From NCBI GenBank assembly GCA_022824025.1, contig JAJEBF010000003.1, positions 248,001 through 312,000 on the forward strand: a stretch of DNA of 64,000 bases, in the 5' to 3' direction. A program made the translations under genes and the position numbers. The stretch is from Caldilineaceae bacterium. GTDB taxonomy: Bacteria > Chloroflexota > Anaerolineae > Caldilineales > Caldilineaceae. The notes beneath the pieces are model-generated. The model had not been told where the DNA came from, made no database searches, and worked only from the letters and a program-made list of their open reading frames with translations. Positions 6,389-59,180 of this stretch are shown piece by piece. Position 1 is the stretch's first letter. Each line of letters begins with the position of its first letter.

Positions 6389-7276
6389 TCAAAACATGCG
6401 TCTCCCTGCGACCTGGACCCGTACGCGGTAGAGCGACGTGCTGGCAGTGACGAACAGGCTCTTCATATCGTCGTCGCCCCAACAGAAGTTTGCGCAGCCC
6501 TGAGGCATCTTGATAACGCCGAGACAGACGGCGTCCGGGTCAAAAACGTGGATTCCCCCCGGCCCTGTTACAAAGAGATTGCCTTGGCTGTCGACCTTCA
6601 TTCCGTCGGGCGCGCCATCGCGGCCCCCTGTGACCTCGGCCCAGACGCGGCCGTTTTCGAGTACACCTTCACTGTTTACATCAAAGACGCGAATGTGCGC
6701 CCGCATCGTGTCGTTTATGAAGATTTGCGACTCGTCCAACGAGAAACAGAGGCCGTTGGGCTGGTCGAAATCGTCGACGAGCAGTGTCAATTCGCCACTG
6801 TCCGGTTCGAGCCGGTACACGCCCTGAAAGTCAAGCGCCTGCGGGCGGGGCAAGCCATAGTACTCCATCCGACCGAAACCGGGATCTGTGAAATAGACTG
6901 TGCCGTCACGCTTCACCGCGATGTCATTCGGGCTGTTGAGCTCCTTGTCACCGTAATGGGTCGCCAGTACCGTGACGGAACCGTCGCTCTCCGTGCGAGT
7001 AACGCGGCTGGTTGCGTGTTCGCAGGTCACGACGCGACCTTCGCGGTCGTAGGCGTTGCCGTTAGCCATGTTGCTGGGGTGGCGCCAGGTCTCTACGCTG
7101 CCGTCGGGCCGCCAGCGGCGCATGATGTTGCCCGGTATATCGCTGAAGATGAGGTGCTTCTCGACATGGTTCCAGATCGGGCCCTCGGTGAATTCAAAGC
7201 CGCTGCCGGCTTCTTCGATTTCGACACCGTCGTCGATGACGGCGCGGAATCGTTTGTCGCGAATCTCGACGTTCAC
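6389..7276 (-). CDS. SMP-30/gluconolactonase-family lactonase
   Basis: Predicted metal-dependent sugar lactonase, a six-bladed beta-propeller of 295 residues that hydrolyses aldonolactones to aldonic acids. Family landmarks are FTEGPIW near residue 30 (metal-ligand Glu), FSDIPGNIMRRW, SNMANGNAYDREGRVVTCEH, LNSPNDIAVKRDGTVYFTDP and the metal-site region QPNGLCFSLDES followed by DGAPDGMKVDSQGN. The GTG start at 7276 is supported by GGAGG five bases upstream. There is no signal peptide, so it should be cytoplasmic. It resembles a second lactonase at 15236-16213 and may share the oxidative sugar route. The exact lactone is unknown. Confidence 0.88.
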   Translation of the reverse strand: MNVEIRDKRFRAVIDDGVEIEEAGSGFEFTEGPIWNHVEKHLIFSDIPGNIMRRWRPDGSVETWRHPSNMANGNAYDREGRVVTCEHATSRVTRTESDGSVTVLATHYGDKELNSPNDIAVKRDGTVYFTDPGFGRMEYYGLPRPQALDFQGVYRLEPDSGELTLLVDDFDQPNGLCFSLDESQIFINDTMRAHIRVFDVNSEGVLENGRVWAEVTGGRDGAPDGMKVDSQGNLFVTGPGGIHVFDPDAVCLGVIKMPQGCANFCWGDDDMKSLFVTASTSLYRVRVQVAGRRMF

Positions 7277-7327
7277 TTTGTCCTCCGAGTGCGCTGTTTG
7301 AGAGTGAATGGGGTGTGATCGTGTCTA

Positions 7328-7906
7328 CTATTCGTCCGATTCGTATTTCCGCATGAAGTAGCCGAACGACGTGTTCTTGGAGCGCGCCGTATCCTGATCG
7401 AACACTTGCAAGATTTCCAGCATGAATTCTGCTCTTGAATTGTATCTTTTTGGCATCAGGCCGAGAAACCGTTCTTTCGTGAGATGGTCGGTGTTATGCA
7501 GATCTGTAGAGATTCCCAGCCTCTCACATTCACCGGCGTTCAGACCCGCGAGATACCAACTCTCAATCTCTCTGCACACAATCAAGATTCGAATCGAATG
7601 GCGAGGATCAGTGGGGTCTGAAGCGTTTGAAGATAAAGATCTGAAACTGGAGAGAACGCGCTCTTTCCTGTCTGTCACACATGGAGACTCATCCAGGTCC
7701 GCCACGACGATTATGTCGGCCAGGCCAGCATCCTGCATGGACCTGATACTGTTCAGGAAGCTGTTTATCTTCTCCTTCTTCTTCTGGCTATACTGCCAGC
7801 ATTGCACGATGTTGTATTCATTTTCACAAATGGGCTTGATGACGCTCTCGAAGAATCTCTCGTCGTCGTTTCCCTCCACCAATATATAGAGCCGCCGATA
7901 GTTCAA
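7328..7906 (-). CDS. TOPRIM-like nuclease-type protein (DUF4276-like), partner of the upstream AAA ATPase
   Basis: A 192-residue protein with a TOPRIM signature. The acidic start is ILVEGNDDERFFE (Glu 11), a strand ending in the DxD motif VVADLDES (Asp 70, Asp 72) follows, and then CREIESWYLAG, characteristic of DUF4276/OLD-type proteins. TOPRIM folds of this kind act as metal-dependent nucleases in OLD, Gabija and PARIS defence systems. It starts with TTG, and the TTGA overlaps the stop of the ATPase gene, so translation is coupled. Base composition is visibly poorer in GC than the neighbours (one 60-base line inside it counts 29 G/C against 37 in the E1-beta gene), suggesting transfer. Nuclease activity is inference. 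Confidence 0.72.
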   Translation of the reverse strand: MNYRRLYILVEGNDDERFFESVIKPICENEYNIVQCWQYSQKKKEKINSFLNSIRSMQDAGLADIIVVADLDESPCVTDRKERVLSSFRSLSSNASDPTDPRHSIRILIVCREIESWYLAGLNAGECERLGISTDLHNTDHLTKERFLGLMPKRYNSRAEFMLEILQVFDQDTARSKNTSFGYFMRKYESDE

Positions 7907-9207
7907 CGTTCTGCACCCAACAGATTGTCAATAAAGAGGTCCTCTACTCCCAAATCATGTTCCAGAAAGATCCTGACATGCTCACTGGCGGCGGGCTTTG
8001 TTATGCGGCTGAAACCGTTCTTGTCACGGCTTACCAGAAGGATTTTCTCGATACCTGTGTACTTAACAACCTCCGGATTGTGTGTGGTCACAAGGATCTG
8101 TCTCCGTTCGGACACCTCTTTAAACAGTTCCATCAGCCCAGAGAGTGCCTTGGGGTGCAGGTGCATGTCTGGCTCTTCGAAAATGGCGAACCGTTTCTGT
8201 TTCTGAAAGAAGAGAGCGACAACGATAGCAATTATATTGGCCGTTCCGTCGGAGAATAGAAAGGCTGGCAGTTCCTTGTCTTCGGCGAAAGTTTCCCGAG
8301 CCTTAATCGCTATAAACCTGTCTGCCAGTTGTTCAATCCCCAGGTCCTTGAGGTAGGGAAGATTGTACTGGCACAGATTGCGGACACTTCGTCTGGTGTC
8401 TTTGTCGCTGAGCAGCTTTTTGAGTACAACGGCCAAGTTGCTGCCGTCCGTCTCCAGTTCTGAGCGGCCGGCGACTGGAATGACTTCCTTGGCTCTTCTC
8501 GGATCAAAATCGTAGATGCCAATTTCCTTAAACCAATCCATATTTGTTCCTGCAACATGGTGAAGAATAGGCGTTTCAATCAGAAGTGTTTTCTCGGCAA
8601 TCTGCTCGCCTCCGAGTGAAGATAGGTGTTCCATTTTCGGAACCGTTGACCTGACGCTAAGCTTGCCAGAAGAGTTCTCGGCAGTTATTTTGGCGGAGTC
8701 GCTAGCACTCTCCCATGCATTGGCAGGATTCTCATGTGCATAGCTGAGAGTCATTCTATCTCGTTCAACGGAATATTCATCTCCTCTCTCGTGAAATCTA
8801 AGCGAAAACTCATAGTTGAACGACTCAAGCTCTTGAGGAATTTGAATCGAGAGCCCTTGAACTTTCTTGGCATCAAAGCCTTCGCCCACATCTACTCTTC
8901 TGTCCACCTTGTGAGATTCACCTCGAAGAGTCAATTGAAATGAGAGAGGCTCACTTGCAGCTATCCCATAGTTGCGCAAGTATTCCACCCCTCCTTGCAA
9001 AGAGATTGCGTCCTCCAGTCCGTGCGTAGCGATGTCGCGCAGGAACTTGAAGGCCTGAACGAAGTTGGATTTGCCCGACGCGTTCGCGCCGACCACCAGG
9101 TTGAAGCCGTTCAATTCAACCGTCTGGTCCTCGAAACTCTTGAAGTTGGCGATTCTGATTTTGCAAACTGGCATTTTGTTTTTCTCACAATGAAGGCTGA
9201 TCTCCAT
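7903..9207 (-). CDS. OLD/RecF-like AAA ATPase (AAA_21-type), putative defence ATPase
   Basis: A 434-residue SMC/RecF-type ATPase. Walker A is GANASGKSNF (residues 40-49), preceded by IANFKSFEDQTVELNGFN as in RecF/OLD proteins. The D-loop/Walker B region FAIFEEPDMHLHP lies at about 340-352, and the H-switch TTHNPEVV at about 375-382. The C-terminal TOPRIM part of full-length OLD proteins is absent and is instead encoded by the next gene, overlapping by four bases. Start: ATG 9207 has no strong ribosome site; an internal ATG at 9174 is the alternative and would begin MPVCKIRI. ATPase-plus-TOPRIM pairs are typical of anti-phage systems such as PARIS and Gabija, but this subfamily was not matched to a named one. 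Confidence 0.82.
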   Translation of the reverse strand: MEISLHCEKNKMPVCKIRIANFKSFEDQTVELNGFNLVVGANASGKSNFVQAFKFLRDIATHGLEDAISLQGGVEYLRNYGIAASEPLSFQLTLRGESHKVDRRVDVGEGFDAKKVQGLSIQIPQELESFNYEFSLRFHERGDEYSVERDRMTLSYAHENPANAWESASDSAKITAENSSGKLSVRSTVPKMEHLSSLGGEQIAEKTLLIETPILHHVAGTNMDWFKEIGIYDFDPRRAKEVIPVAGRSELETDGSNLAVVLKKLLSDKDTRRSVRNLCQYNLPYLKDLGIEQLADRFIAIKARETFAEDKELPAFLFSDGTANIIAIVVALFFQKQKRFAIFEEPDMHLHPKALSGLMELFKEVSERRQILVTTHNPEVVKYTGIEKILLVSRDKNGFSRITKPAASEHVRIFLEHDLGVEDLFIDNLLGAER

Positions 9208-9524
9208 AATGAGTTGTCATCAGCCTTCAAATTCTCAAGAGAGCTTTTCCCAGGTTTCAAGCGTCGATCCGCGCCGCCGGCATCTGCCCAAACGGAACCA
9301 ACCATCGAGCCAACGACCTTGAACCACCTCTCGATCCCGTGCCACAATTATGACCGCGCTTTACCCAAACGCAAACTTGCGGCTAAATATGTTCTGACTC
9401 CCCAATCGTCCCAGGGAGCCCGCAAACGGCGTATTCTCCTTCACTCTATGGTAAAATACCCGCCAATCAGACCATACACCGCCACCGGAGGGGCGAAGCC
9501 GCACAAGCCCGGGGGAATCTGAAG
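9208..9524. other. Divergent spacer between ATPase gene and E1-beta gene
   Basis: No gene is seen. It holds a candidate minus-strand promoter for the ATPase/TOPRIM pair (9347-9374). A TAAAAT box at 9452-9457 may be the -10 element of the E1-beta gene, without a good -35 partner. Confidence 0.5.
9347..9374 (-). promoter_or_regulatory. Candidate promoter for the ATPase/TOPRIM operon
   Basis: Minus strand -35 TTGCGT (9369-9374) and -10 CATAAT (9347-9352), 16 bases apart. Both boxes deviate from consensus, so this is only a candidate. Confidence 0.35.
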
Positions 9525-10511
9525 ATGAGCAGCACGCGGGAATTAACCTACATCGCAGCCATCACCGAGGCGCTCGACGTGGAAATGGCGCGCGACCCGG
9601 AGGTAATCATTTTCGGCGAAGACGTTGCCGGGCCCTTCGGCGGCGCATTCAAAGTGACCAAGCCCCTGACCGATAAGTACCCGCCCGAACGCATCTTCAA
9701 TACGCCCATGTGCGAAAACGCCTTCATCAGCATGGGCACAGGCATGGCCCTGATGGGCATGCGCCCCGTAATCGAAATGCAGTTCGCCGACTTTATCTCC
9801 AGCGGCTTCGACAGCATCGTCCAGTTCGCCGCCACCAACCACTATCGCTGGGGCGCGCCCGTGCCTTGGGTGATCAGGGCGCCGAGCGACGGCGGCCTGC
9901 GCTCCGGCCCTTTTCACAGCCAGAATCCGGAGGCCTGGTTCACACACTCTCCCGGTCTCAAAGTCGTCGCCCCCGCCACGCCGGCAGATGCCAAGGGCCT
10001 CCTGATCGCCTCCATCCGCGACAACAACCCTGTCATCTACATGGAGAGCAAAATCCTCTACCGTTCAGAGCGCGGCCCCGTACCCGCTGGCGACTACTCT
10101 GTGCCAATTGGCAAGGCCCACACGGCCCGCGAGGGCGCCGACCTCTCCATCATCACCTACGGCGCCCAGGTACGCGAGGCCCAACGAGCCGCGCAGCAGC
10201 TCGCGGAAGAAGATATCGAAGCCGAAATCCTGGACCTGCGCACGCTCAAGCCGTTGGACAAAGAGGCCATCCTCACCTGCGCCCGCAAAACCGGCAAGGT
10301 TCTGATCGTCCACAGCGCAACCGGAAACACCGGCGTCGGCGCCGAAGTGGCCGCGTTGATCGCGCAAGAGGCGTTCGAATGGCTCGACGCGCCCATCCAG
10401 CGGCTGACCGGGCTCGACGTTCCCGTTCCCTTCAGCCCCACCCTGGAAGACGCATACCGTCCCAGCGCGGAAAAGATCCACGCCCGCGCCGCTGAACTGG
10501 CGGCGTTCTGA
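9525..10511 (+). CDS. Thiamine-dependent 2-oxoacid dehydrogenase E1 beta subunit (pyruvate/acetoin/branched-chain type)
   Basis: A 328-residue E1-beta subunit with the pattern of PdhB, AcoB and BkdA2. It begins with a transketolase pyrimidine-binding domain (ITEALDVEMARDPEVIIFGE, with the TPP-activating Glu in GED). FNTPMCENAFISMGTGMALM and PVIEMQFADFI follow, and the C-terminal transketolase domain contains GADLSIITYGAQV and DLRTLKPLDKEAI. Such subunits normally work as alpha2beta2 with an E1-alpha and transfer an acyl group to the E2 lipoyl domain. No E1-alpha, E2 or E3 gene is adjacent, which is unusual. The next gene, a Nudix protein, begins two bases after the stop. The substrate cannot be assigned. 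Confidence 0.87.
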   Translation: MSSTRELTYIAAITEALDVEMARDPEVIIFGEDVAGPFGGAFKVTKPLTDKYPPERIFNTPMCENAFISMGTGMALMGMRPVIEMQFADFISSGFDSIVQFAATNHYRWGAPVPWVIRAPSDGGLRSGPFHSQNPEAWFTHSPGLKVVAPATPADAKGLLIASIRDNNPVIYMESKILYRSERGPVPAGDYSVPIGKAHTAREGADLSIITYGAQVREAQRAAQQLAEEDIEAEILDLRTLKPLDKEAILTCARKTGKVLIVHSATGNTGVGAEVAALIAQEAFEWLDAPIQRLTGLDVPVPFSPTLEDAYRPSAEKIHARAAELAAF

Positions 10512-18241: not shown

Positions 18242-18842
18242 GAATGGAATGCTCTCTTGGGCACAAGCCTCTTCGCCTCCCCACCCGGATCCGTGTTGAA
18301 ATTTGCAGGAACGCCCGAACCTGCGAGACCTGCTGAACATGGACTCCTGCGACGCCGGGCACTACTCTGCCCTGCCCCGCTTGCCAGGCCCGCCCTCTGC
18401 AATGTTCGCATAGACAAATGCCAGTGCCGAGACGGCGTGGGAACCGCACCGCGCCAGTCAATGCAGACTTCAGCATACTTTCTTGCCCCATTCCGCGTCA
18501 AACCTGTAAGCGTGACGGGCGCAGTCCAGATCCGGGACTGTCAAGCGAGGCTGGCTGCAGTCTCCACAAAGACTCCCCCGAGGTAGCCTGAAAGAACACC
18601 CCTTCTTCCCTGGCCACCACATCCCCGCCCCGCGGCGCCTCCCCTCCCGCCACTGACCACTGACCACTGACCACTGACCACTGACCACTGACCACTGACC
18701 ACTGACCACCGACCACTGACCACCGCAGTTCAGTTTGACGGAGCAGGCCCGCCATGTTAGTCTTCGTGTATTCCCCTGCCCGTTTCCCCCCGCCGCGTCC
18801 CCGTCCGATAGCGTAGAAACGGGGACAACTGAGGTCCCGTAC
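18242..18842. other. Divergent intergenic region with heptanucleotide repeat
   Basis: About 600 bases between the SLC13-type gene and the sialidase-like gene. It contains the 7-base tandem repeat listed separately. Open frames running through the repeat are artefacts of its simple sequence. No convincing promoter was seen. Confidence 0.55.
18651..18724. repeat. Heptanucleotide tandem repeat (CACTGAC)n
   Basis: Ten head-to-tail units of CACTGAC plus a partial unit; unit 9 reads CACCGAC. A 7-base period shifts the reading frame each unit, so it is not coding. Read on the other strand it is GTCAGTG. Confidence 0.97.
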
Positions 18843-58473: not shown

Positions 58474-58502
58474 AGTATAGACTGAAATCCGCGAAACCGC
58501 AA
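58474..58502 (-). promoter_or_regulatory. Promoter for the ABC exporter operon
   Basis: Minus strand -35 TTGCGG (58497-58502) and -10 TATACT (58474-58479) with ideal 17-base spacing, about 80 bases upstream of the first exporter gene. Confidence 0.6.
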
Positions 58503-58535
58503 ATGAGGATCGCCAGAGGGTACTGCCCAGATTTG

Positions 58536-58586
58536 GGACGAGGGATTTTGTCTGGACGAGGGATTCTGTCTGAACGGGGATTTGGG
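58536..58586. repeat. 18-base tandem repeat
   Basis: GGACGAGGGATTTTGTCT (58536-58553) is followed by a copy with one change (58554-58571) and a decayed third unit starting GAACGGGGATTTGGG. Confidence 0.88.
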
Positions 58587-58626
58587 CGGATTCTTGGGAT
58601 TTGGGGGATTAGGGCGAACGGCAATC

Positions 58627-58737
58627 GCGAAATTCAACATCTCTTGATCCACGAAGGGACGCGAAGGGGCGCGAAGGGGCGCGAAGAAGGGCAACGGCGA
58701 ACTTCAACATCTTTTGATCCACGGAGGGACACGGATG
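58627..58737. repeat. Pair of ~40-base imperfect direct repeats with decamer array between
   Basis: The segment at 58627-58666 recurs exactly 70 bases later at 58697-58737 (core TTCAACATC, then TTGATCCACG and GAGGGAC-like). Between them the decamer GCGAAGGGGC is repeated about three times (58661-58690). Confidence 0.85.
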
Positions 58738-58821
58738 AGGGCAGAGGGAGGGCGCGAGGGAGGGCGCGAGGGCCGTGTTGGCGTCTCTGGATTGGGGGCT
58801 GGTTTCTGTGCGGAGGGGCTT

Positions 58822-58842
58822 GGGCGCCCACAAGGGACGCCC
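58822..58842. repeat. Short inverted repeat GGGCGCCC/GGGACGCCC
   Basis: GGGCGCCC (58822-58829) and GGGACGCCC (58834-58842) can pair with one bulge around a four-base loop. I recall similar GGGGCGTCCC...GGGCGCCC motifs in intergenic regions of other GC-rich genomes, but cannot verify this here. Confidence 0.6.
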
Positions 58843-59180
58843 CTACGGAAGGTTTGCGGAGCGAGGGAGGGGTGCATGGCGCGAACAAGGGCAACCATTC
58901 GGGCAGCCGTTGTTCGCGGTAAGTGGTGGGGCGGAGTCTCAGGCGCGGGAGGAGGGGGCAAGGGAAACTGCGGGGGAGGGGCGGGTGAAGGCGAGTAATC
59001 CATTGAATCCTGGGACCCGTTTCTCCTGGCAACCCCAAATGTGGACTGCACCCTTGGGGCAACTGGGGGCATAAGCATCTTATTGGGAGAGAACTTTCAG
59101 CAGAAAGTCAGTTTTCCAACCGGCTCGTTACCGTTGACCCGATTCAGATGCGATTGCCCTGCCCCAAATTCGGTCCATGC

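Follow-up and report, generated by a model that had tools for sequence, protein, structure and literature searches.

The window analysed here, the whole 64,000-nt stretch of DNA presented above, holds a compact pair of genes between a gluconolactonase-like gene and a PDH E1-beta gene. A reading made from the letters alone (hereafter the sequence-only reading) had taken the pair for a transferred defence module. The locus thus raises the question of whether an ATPase and a small partner protein, placed among genes of central metabolism, form an anti-phage system, and if so of which kind, or whether they serve their neighbours, the stability of the region or the chromosome.

The gene pair and its setting

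The genes and the interval that they occupy are as follows.

6389-7276, minus strand: gluconolactonase-like gene, neighbour of the small gene
7277..9524: variable-cargo interval, bounded by the gluconolactonase-like gene (minus strand) and the PDH E1-beta gene (plus strand)
7328..7906, minus strand: small-protein gene, 192 aa, TTG start; TOPRIM-like putative nuclease, DUF3226 above cut-off, HEC-01B
7903..7906, minus strand: TTGA, stop/start overlap of 4 nt that couples both genes
7903..9174, minus strand: ATPase gene, 423 aa; OLD/SMC-type ABC ATPase, AAA_21/AAA_15, best PADLOC model HEC-01A
9525-10511, plus strand: PDH E1-beta gene, neighbour of the ATPase gene

Both open reading frames were found where the sequence-only reading had placed them, on the minus strand and overlapping by four bases. 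The ATPase frame opens at 9207 (7903-9207, 434 aa); its relatives begin at an internal ATG, at 9174, so the real start is probably 9174 rather than 9207 and the probable ATPase is the 423-aa protein of 7903-9174. Tight coupling of the two genes, by an overlap or a gap of no more than about 12 nt, also occurs in other Bacteria, in one archaeon and in one phage contig. Intact and adjacent homologues in the same order are present in many genomes, which excludes chance reading frames. The host, to judge by its relatives a Caldilineaceae (Chloroflexota) bacterium, carries the small gene in one copy.

With a G+C content of 48.8%, where the window averages 59.4%, the pair is the poorest stretch of the window in G+C, and only 1 of 622 windows of equal size is as low; the hint of low G+C, given earlier from sample lines, was thus confirmed. 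GC3 of the pair is 0.55-0.63, compared with 0.75-0.81 in the five neighbours measured. No recognised defence gene adjoining the pair was found in the window, and an Rfam search of the window returned a tRNA as its sole match. Two repeat features lie elsewhere in the window: a heptamer array (CCACTGA, 10.6 copies) at 18650-18723, where overlapping ORFs read VVSGQWS repeats, and a region of strong G skew (0.385) with short degenerate tandem repeats at 58500-59000.

The ATPase

The larger protein matches Pfam AAA_21 and AAA_15, and a TOPRIM part is absent from it. Its motifs are listed below.

9067..9090, minus strand: Walker A, GANASGKS; GxNxSGKS invariant in 13 relatives
8242..8253, minus strand: ABC signature-like SDGT; invariant
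8165..8192, minus strand: Walker B and the next loop, FAIFEEPD..LHP
8080..8088, minus strand: H-switch, T-T-H; T-x-H in relatives

Walker A (GxNxSGKSN), SDGT, Walker B with EEP and the H-switch are kept in relatives of as low as 40% identity, and the sequence stops shortly beyond the H-switch. The Pfam matches and the alignment of relatives agree with the initial description of a RecF/OLD-type ATPase that has Walker A, Walker B and an H-switch and lacks the TOPRIM domain. A Foldseek search with the AF2 model of the ATPase, which is of moderate quality (pLDDT 66.5), placed GajA, PtuA, OLD and the ATPase of retron-Eco8 nearest, and Rad50 was also found.

The small protein

Three acidic motifs were located in the small protein.

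7862..7876, minus strand: TOPRIM motif 1, E11-G-N-D-D15, an acidic E, E+4 pair like E400/E404 of Bp OLD
7691..7699, minus strand: TOPRIM DxD, D70-L-D72; D70 invariant, position 72 D or N, paired by hhalign with the DxD of OLD
7562..7570, minus strand: E113-I-E115 in REIESWY, candidate metal-B ligand; E115 invariant

Across 19 relatives, E11, D70, E115, W117, Y118 and L119 are invariant and D15 is nearly so. Glu 11, Asp 70, Asp 72 and the REIESWY motif, singled out by the sequence-only reading, are thus all present, but Asp 72 is not invariant, position 72 being mostly D or N and often Asn in these relatives. The metal ligands of Bp OLD are E400/E404, D455/D457 and E508 (PMC6755086). By their match to this arrangement, E11, D15, D70, D/N72 and E115 appear to correspond to the OLD active site, and E113/E115 may be equivalent to T506/E508.

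An hhalign comparison of the relatives' profile with OLD TOPRIM domains gave 89.5% and an E-value of 2e-6, with E11 aligned to the Glu and D70xD72 to the DxD; as controls, 12 column-shuffled profiles gave E-values of at least 0.35 and nine unrelated gene families of at least 0.096. The AF2 model of the small protein shows alternating beta-alpha elements with the motifs at the expected ends; it is weak (pLDDT 73.5, pTM 0.49), and a Foldseek search with it against the PDB gave no significant match, so the TOPRIM fold rests on the profile and the motifs. A PDB sequence search with the small protein found no match. Taken together, the small protein is best described as a TOPRIM-like putative nuclease, and the proposal of a split pair, an OLD-type ATPase without TOPRIM beside a TOPRIM-like protein, holds.

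Assignment to HEC-01

The small protein had been called DUF4276-type, a label that it narrowly misses (27.3 bits, cut-off 30.2), while DUF3226 passes (28.1, cut-off 27); DUF4435 (17.2, cut-off 27) and RloB (14.9, cut-off 31.5) score lower. When Pfam and PADLOC models were searched, as had been proposed, HEC-01 was best for both proteins. The best PADLOC model of the ATPase is HEC-01A (163.7 bits, residues 11-405) and that of the small protein is HEC-01B, at a weak 29 bits (E 2.2e-7); the match of model PDLC04196 to the small protein spans profile positions 8-188 of 197, and of the small protein's 19 relatives, 18 hit HEC-01B. The gene adjacency of HEC-01 is present as well, with the 4-nt overlap and a conserved gene order. 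Two further PADLOC labels look swapped, since PDLC04143, named 'HEC-01A' (190 positions), matches the small protein and PDLC04144, named 'HEC-01B', matches the ATPase; the family names used here are the annotators' labels.

HEC-01, or Hma-embedded candidate 1, is a candidate system of PADLOC, traced here through its models and PMC12988326 to a preprint by Payne et al. (10.1101/2024.01.29.577857). Judged by the highest-scoring models, not by PADLOC's own system cut-offs, the pair is a member of this candidate type, which is already catalogued and little studied. It is not a new type: the suggestion that the pair might be unnamed failed because both proteins match HEC-01 models. Only indirect mentions of HEC-01 and DUF4276 were found in the literature searched, and no description of a HEC-01-like mechanism.

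Distribution

The small gene is present in 11 of 17 congener genomes, most of the genomes compared being MAGs that may be incomplete, and the loci of two of those counted without the pair (G007, G008) run off their contigs and are unreadable at the site. It was found in none of 29 other genomes of the family and in 8 of 400 genomes of a sample of the phylum Chloroflexota, being absent from 98%. Farther afield, contigs assigned to Latescibacterota, Synergistetes and a Methanophagales archaeon also carry pairs. The pair is therefore accessory. The case named beforehand as refuting, a housekeeping family kept at a single locus throughout the phylum, does not hold; a housekeeping role was rejected on the patchy distribution together with the deletion scar and empty sites described below.

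Two relatives have associations of the defence type anticipated for the pair. On an IMG/VR viral contig (L058) a pair lies between ssb and terminase-like genes, and in G015 (L014) the pair stands behind a PD-T4-4_A homologue and one further ORF. Annotated phage records gave no match, nor did a plasmid search with the small protein. Plasmid carriage was rejected: the ATPase hits on plasmids, at 26-27% identity, belong to a different protein, and the one that was inspected has no partner gene listed next to it.

A variable interval within the genus

The pair sits at the same spot in 10 of 11 carriers, G015 being the carrier with the pair elsewhere; the contig of G009 begins within the ATPase. 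Other congeners fill the interval differently. In G018 it contains a FitA-type antitoxin and a PIN gene instead of the pair, with similar ORFs in G015, and in G010 it contains HicA, with similar ORFs in G016. The interval of G020 has two N6/N4 methyltransferase-Mrr genes, and between the methyltransferases (L031 4944-5150) lies a frame made of the ATPase start, a stop and the last residues of the small protein; judging from these remnants, it is a deletion scar of the entire pair. In G014 (L002 5060-6688) a methyltransferase fused to an Mrr-like domain lies directly upstream of an intact pair and is 71-75% identical to the same-site copies in G020. In G019 the small (TOPRIM) gene has an internal stop and the ATPase frame is open.

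Two other genes of the genus deserve mention. A protein of 274-289 aa (L030 4425-5294, L032) shares the interval with the FitA-type antitoxin and PIN gene in G018 and G015; in G018 it matches nothing in Pfam or PADLOC, and it is possibly an unrecognised defence or toxin gene. The close congener G013 (L064 1030-2975) has a second, different pair of an AAA protein and a small TOPRIM-like protein, the latter matching PADLOC PDC-M38B.

Divergence, selection and allele exchange

Between the deeper clades of the genus, identity is 53-64% for the small protein and 58-88% for the ATPase, compared with 72-98% for flanking proteins, and the pair diverges much faster than its neighbours. The dN/dS of both genes is about 0.1-0.6, below 1 and mostly indicating weaker constraint than in the neighbours (0.02-0.16). 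By this measure, both genes are under net purifying selection and are kept by selection.

The flank tree unites L004 and L007 with a support of 100/100, and this grouping is rejected by the ATPase tree (p 7e-6) and by the TOPRIM tree (p 4e-5), where the long branch of L007 makes its position uncertain; the trees contain 10-14 rows. At the DNA level, identity between the window and L007 is 83-94% from about 9180 down to 8100, falls to 62-74% across the end of the ATPase gene and the small gene, and is back at about 90% in the gluconolactonase-like gene. The simplest reading of this pattern is that recombination replaced the small gene and the ATPase C-terminus from a different source. The term 'transferred module', used in the sequence-only reading, is too simple because the pair is old at this site in the genus, alleles were replaced and the pair was lost repeatedly: the accessory nature and horizontal exchange stand, a single recent arrival does not.

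Proposed function

The cassette is likely a two-gene anti-phage system of the split OLD kind (HEC-01), as far as its sequence features and genomic behaviour indicate. The ABC-type ATPase would bind ATP, assemble into an oligomer and hold the TOPRIM-like protein inactive. A phage product or activity would alter the state of the ATPase, and the TOPRIM protein would be released or activated and might then cut nucleic acid by a two-metal mechanism, either tRNA as AriB does or DNA as OLD and GajA do. Cutting would stop the infection, probably through cell arrest or death. For the sensing, the nuclease control, the substrate and the abortive outcome we infer by analogy. In PARIS, the sensing of a phage product by AriA sets free AriB, a TOPRIM tRNase (PMC12409363; PMC12839542), and AAA ATPase and TOPRIM_OLD pairs behave as antitoxin and toxin in neutralisation assays (PMC10440598); it is because of these two analogies that the ATPase is assigned the sensing and restraining role and the small protein the cutting one.

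The same assays would also fit a toxin-antitoxin addiction module, with a TOPRIM toxin and an ATPase antitoxin kept for the stability of the region and not for defence, and the HicA and FitA/PIN genes that fill the same interval in congeners point in this direction. However, several congeners have lost the pair and one keeps a scar of it, and its relatives include one on a phage contig and one close to PD-T4-4. Moreover, the two functions are not mutually exclusive, as the toxin-antitoxin study itself suspects abortive infection (PMC10440598). The stop in the TOPRIM gene of G019, where the ATPase is open, fits both. An addiction role without defence is considered unlikely.

A still less probable proposal is that the pair serves as the removable effector arm in a guard linked to restriction, in which the ATPase would detect phage anti-restriction activity and fire the TOPRIM nuclease, and the small protein and the ATPase C-terminus would be swapped between lineages, changing the trigger or the target. 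Its basis is the methyltransferase-Mrr gene found beside the intact pair in G014 and beside the scar in G020.

A second genus and the metabolic neighbours

The preferred reading, a split OLD-type anti-phage system, has also to be weighed against a regulator of metabolism or stress linked to the central-metabolism genes next to it, since metabolic operons contain or adjoin several of the relatives. In other Chloroflexota (L052-L055) pairs are found within operons of glutamate-synthase, GXGXG, homocysteine S-methyltransferase and sarcosine-oxidase-type genes, which we take to resemble N-methylglutamate pathways; two pairs are beside PEPCK (L056, L057) and an archaeal one (L012) is beside a glutamate-synthase-domain gene. 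The gene-neighbourhood survey, suggested earlier as a check, showed, however, that the neighbours differ from genus to genus and that the pair is accessory.

The genus g71, of another Chloroflexota family, is informative here. In two of its six genomes, a glutamate-synthase-domain gene and a sarcosine-oxidase-type gene flank a related pair. Three others (G122, G078 and G162) have complete empty sites, in which these two flanking genes adjoin each other, separated by a short gap or by one small unrelated ORF, and the fragmentary assembly G353 has the same empty appearance. The flanking gene is about 95% identical between genomes with and without the pair. The two carriers share 57% identity in the small protein and 83% in the ATPase, compared with 96% in the flanking gene. 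The pair is therefore optional in g71, which is evidence against a metabolic role; with its divergence far above that of the neighbours, this makes such a role very improbable.

Least probable of all is a chromosome-maintenance or DNA-repair factor akin to RecF/Rad50/OLD: the ATPase fold is common to Rad50/SMC/RecF and an OLD protein of archaea, Cran1, has a role in the cell cycle (PMC12796447), but the absence from 6 of 17 congener assemblies, from the other sampled genera of the family and from 98% of the phylum sample, together with allele exchange and the deletion scar, leaves an essential role of this kind largely refuted.

Significance

Within one genus and at one address, the cassette occurs in intact, mosaic, stop-containing and deleted forms with well-resolved flanks, which is a natural comparative set, and the second genus adds clean empty sites to it. 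This allows a search for those regions of the two proteins that vary together, and that on this account are likely to face the phage, with no prior guess of the trigger. Such cassettes can also be housed among genes of central metabolism where neither an integrase nor a tRNA adjoins them, and island-based searches would miss these.

Comparison with known systems

Like Gabija GajA and the class 1 OLD nucleases, the pair has an OLD-type ATPase and the corresponding TOPRIM acidic residues. Unlike in Gabija, TOPRIM is on a separate protein and no UvrD-like GajB adjoins it; Gabija was rejected, the ATPase and TOPRIM being unfused and the neighbours being the gluconolactonase-like and PDH E1-beta genes and not a GajB helicase. 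Several features recall MADS: the ATPase is MAD3-like (109.6 bits), the small protein is MAD4-like (27.3 bits) and one congener has a DNA methyltransferase next to the pair. MADS was likewise rejected, the NCBIfam MAD3 score being 115.5 against a cut-off of 420 and a multi-gene MADS operon being absent.

The two-gene layout of an ATPase and a TOPRIM-like effector is common to AbiL (AbiLi/AbiLii) and the AAA-TOPRIM_OLD toxin-antitoxin pairs (PMC10440598), and the ATPase scores 93.5 bits with the PADLOC AbiLi model; membership of AbiL was rejected, as the partner is not RloB by the Pfam score given above. With PARIS (AriA/AriB; class 4 OLD) the pair shares an ATPase and a TOPRIM protein coded by adjacent separate genes, and the ATPase scores 107.8 bits against AriA. 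The small partner differs from that of PARIS: it falls below the DUF4435 cut-off, on which PARIS membership was rejected, and reaches just 21.3 bits with the AriB model.

The closest likeness by model score is to HEC-01, in which an AAA_21-type ATPase adjoins a small DUF3226/DUF4276-like protein and whose models are best for both proteins. Differences from HEC-01 are that this pair is not embedded in another defence system in the window, that its HEC-01B score is weak, and that the Caldilineaceae clade has a locus behaviour of its own.
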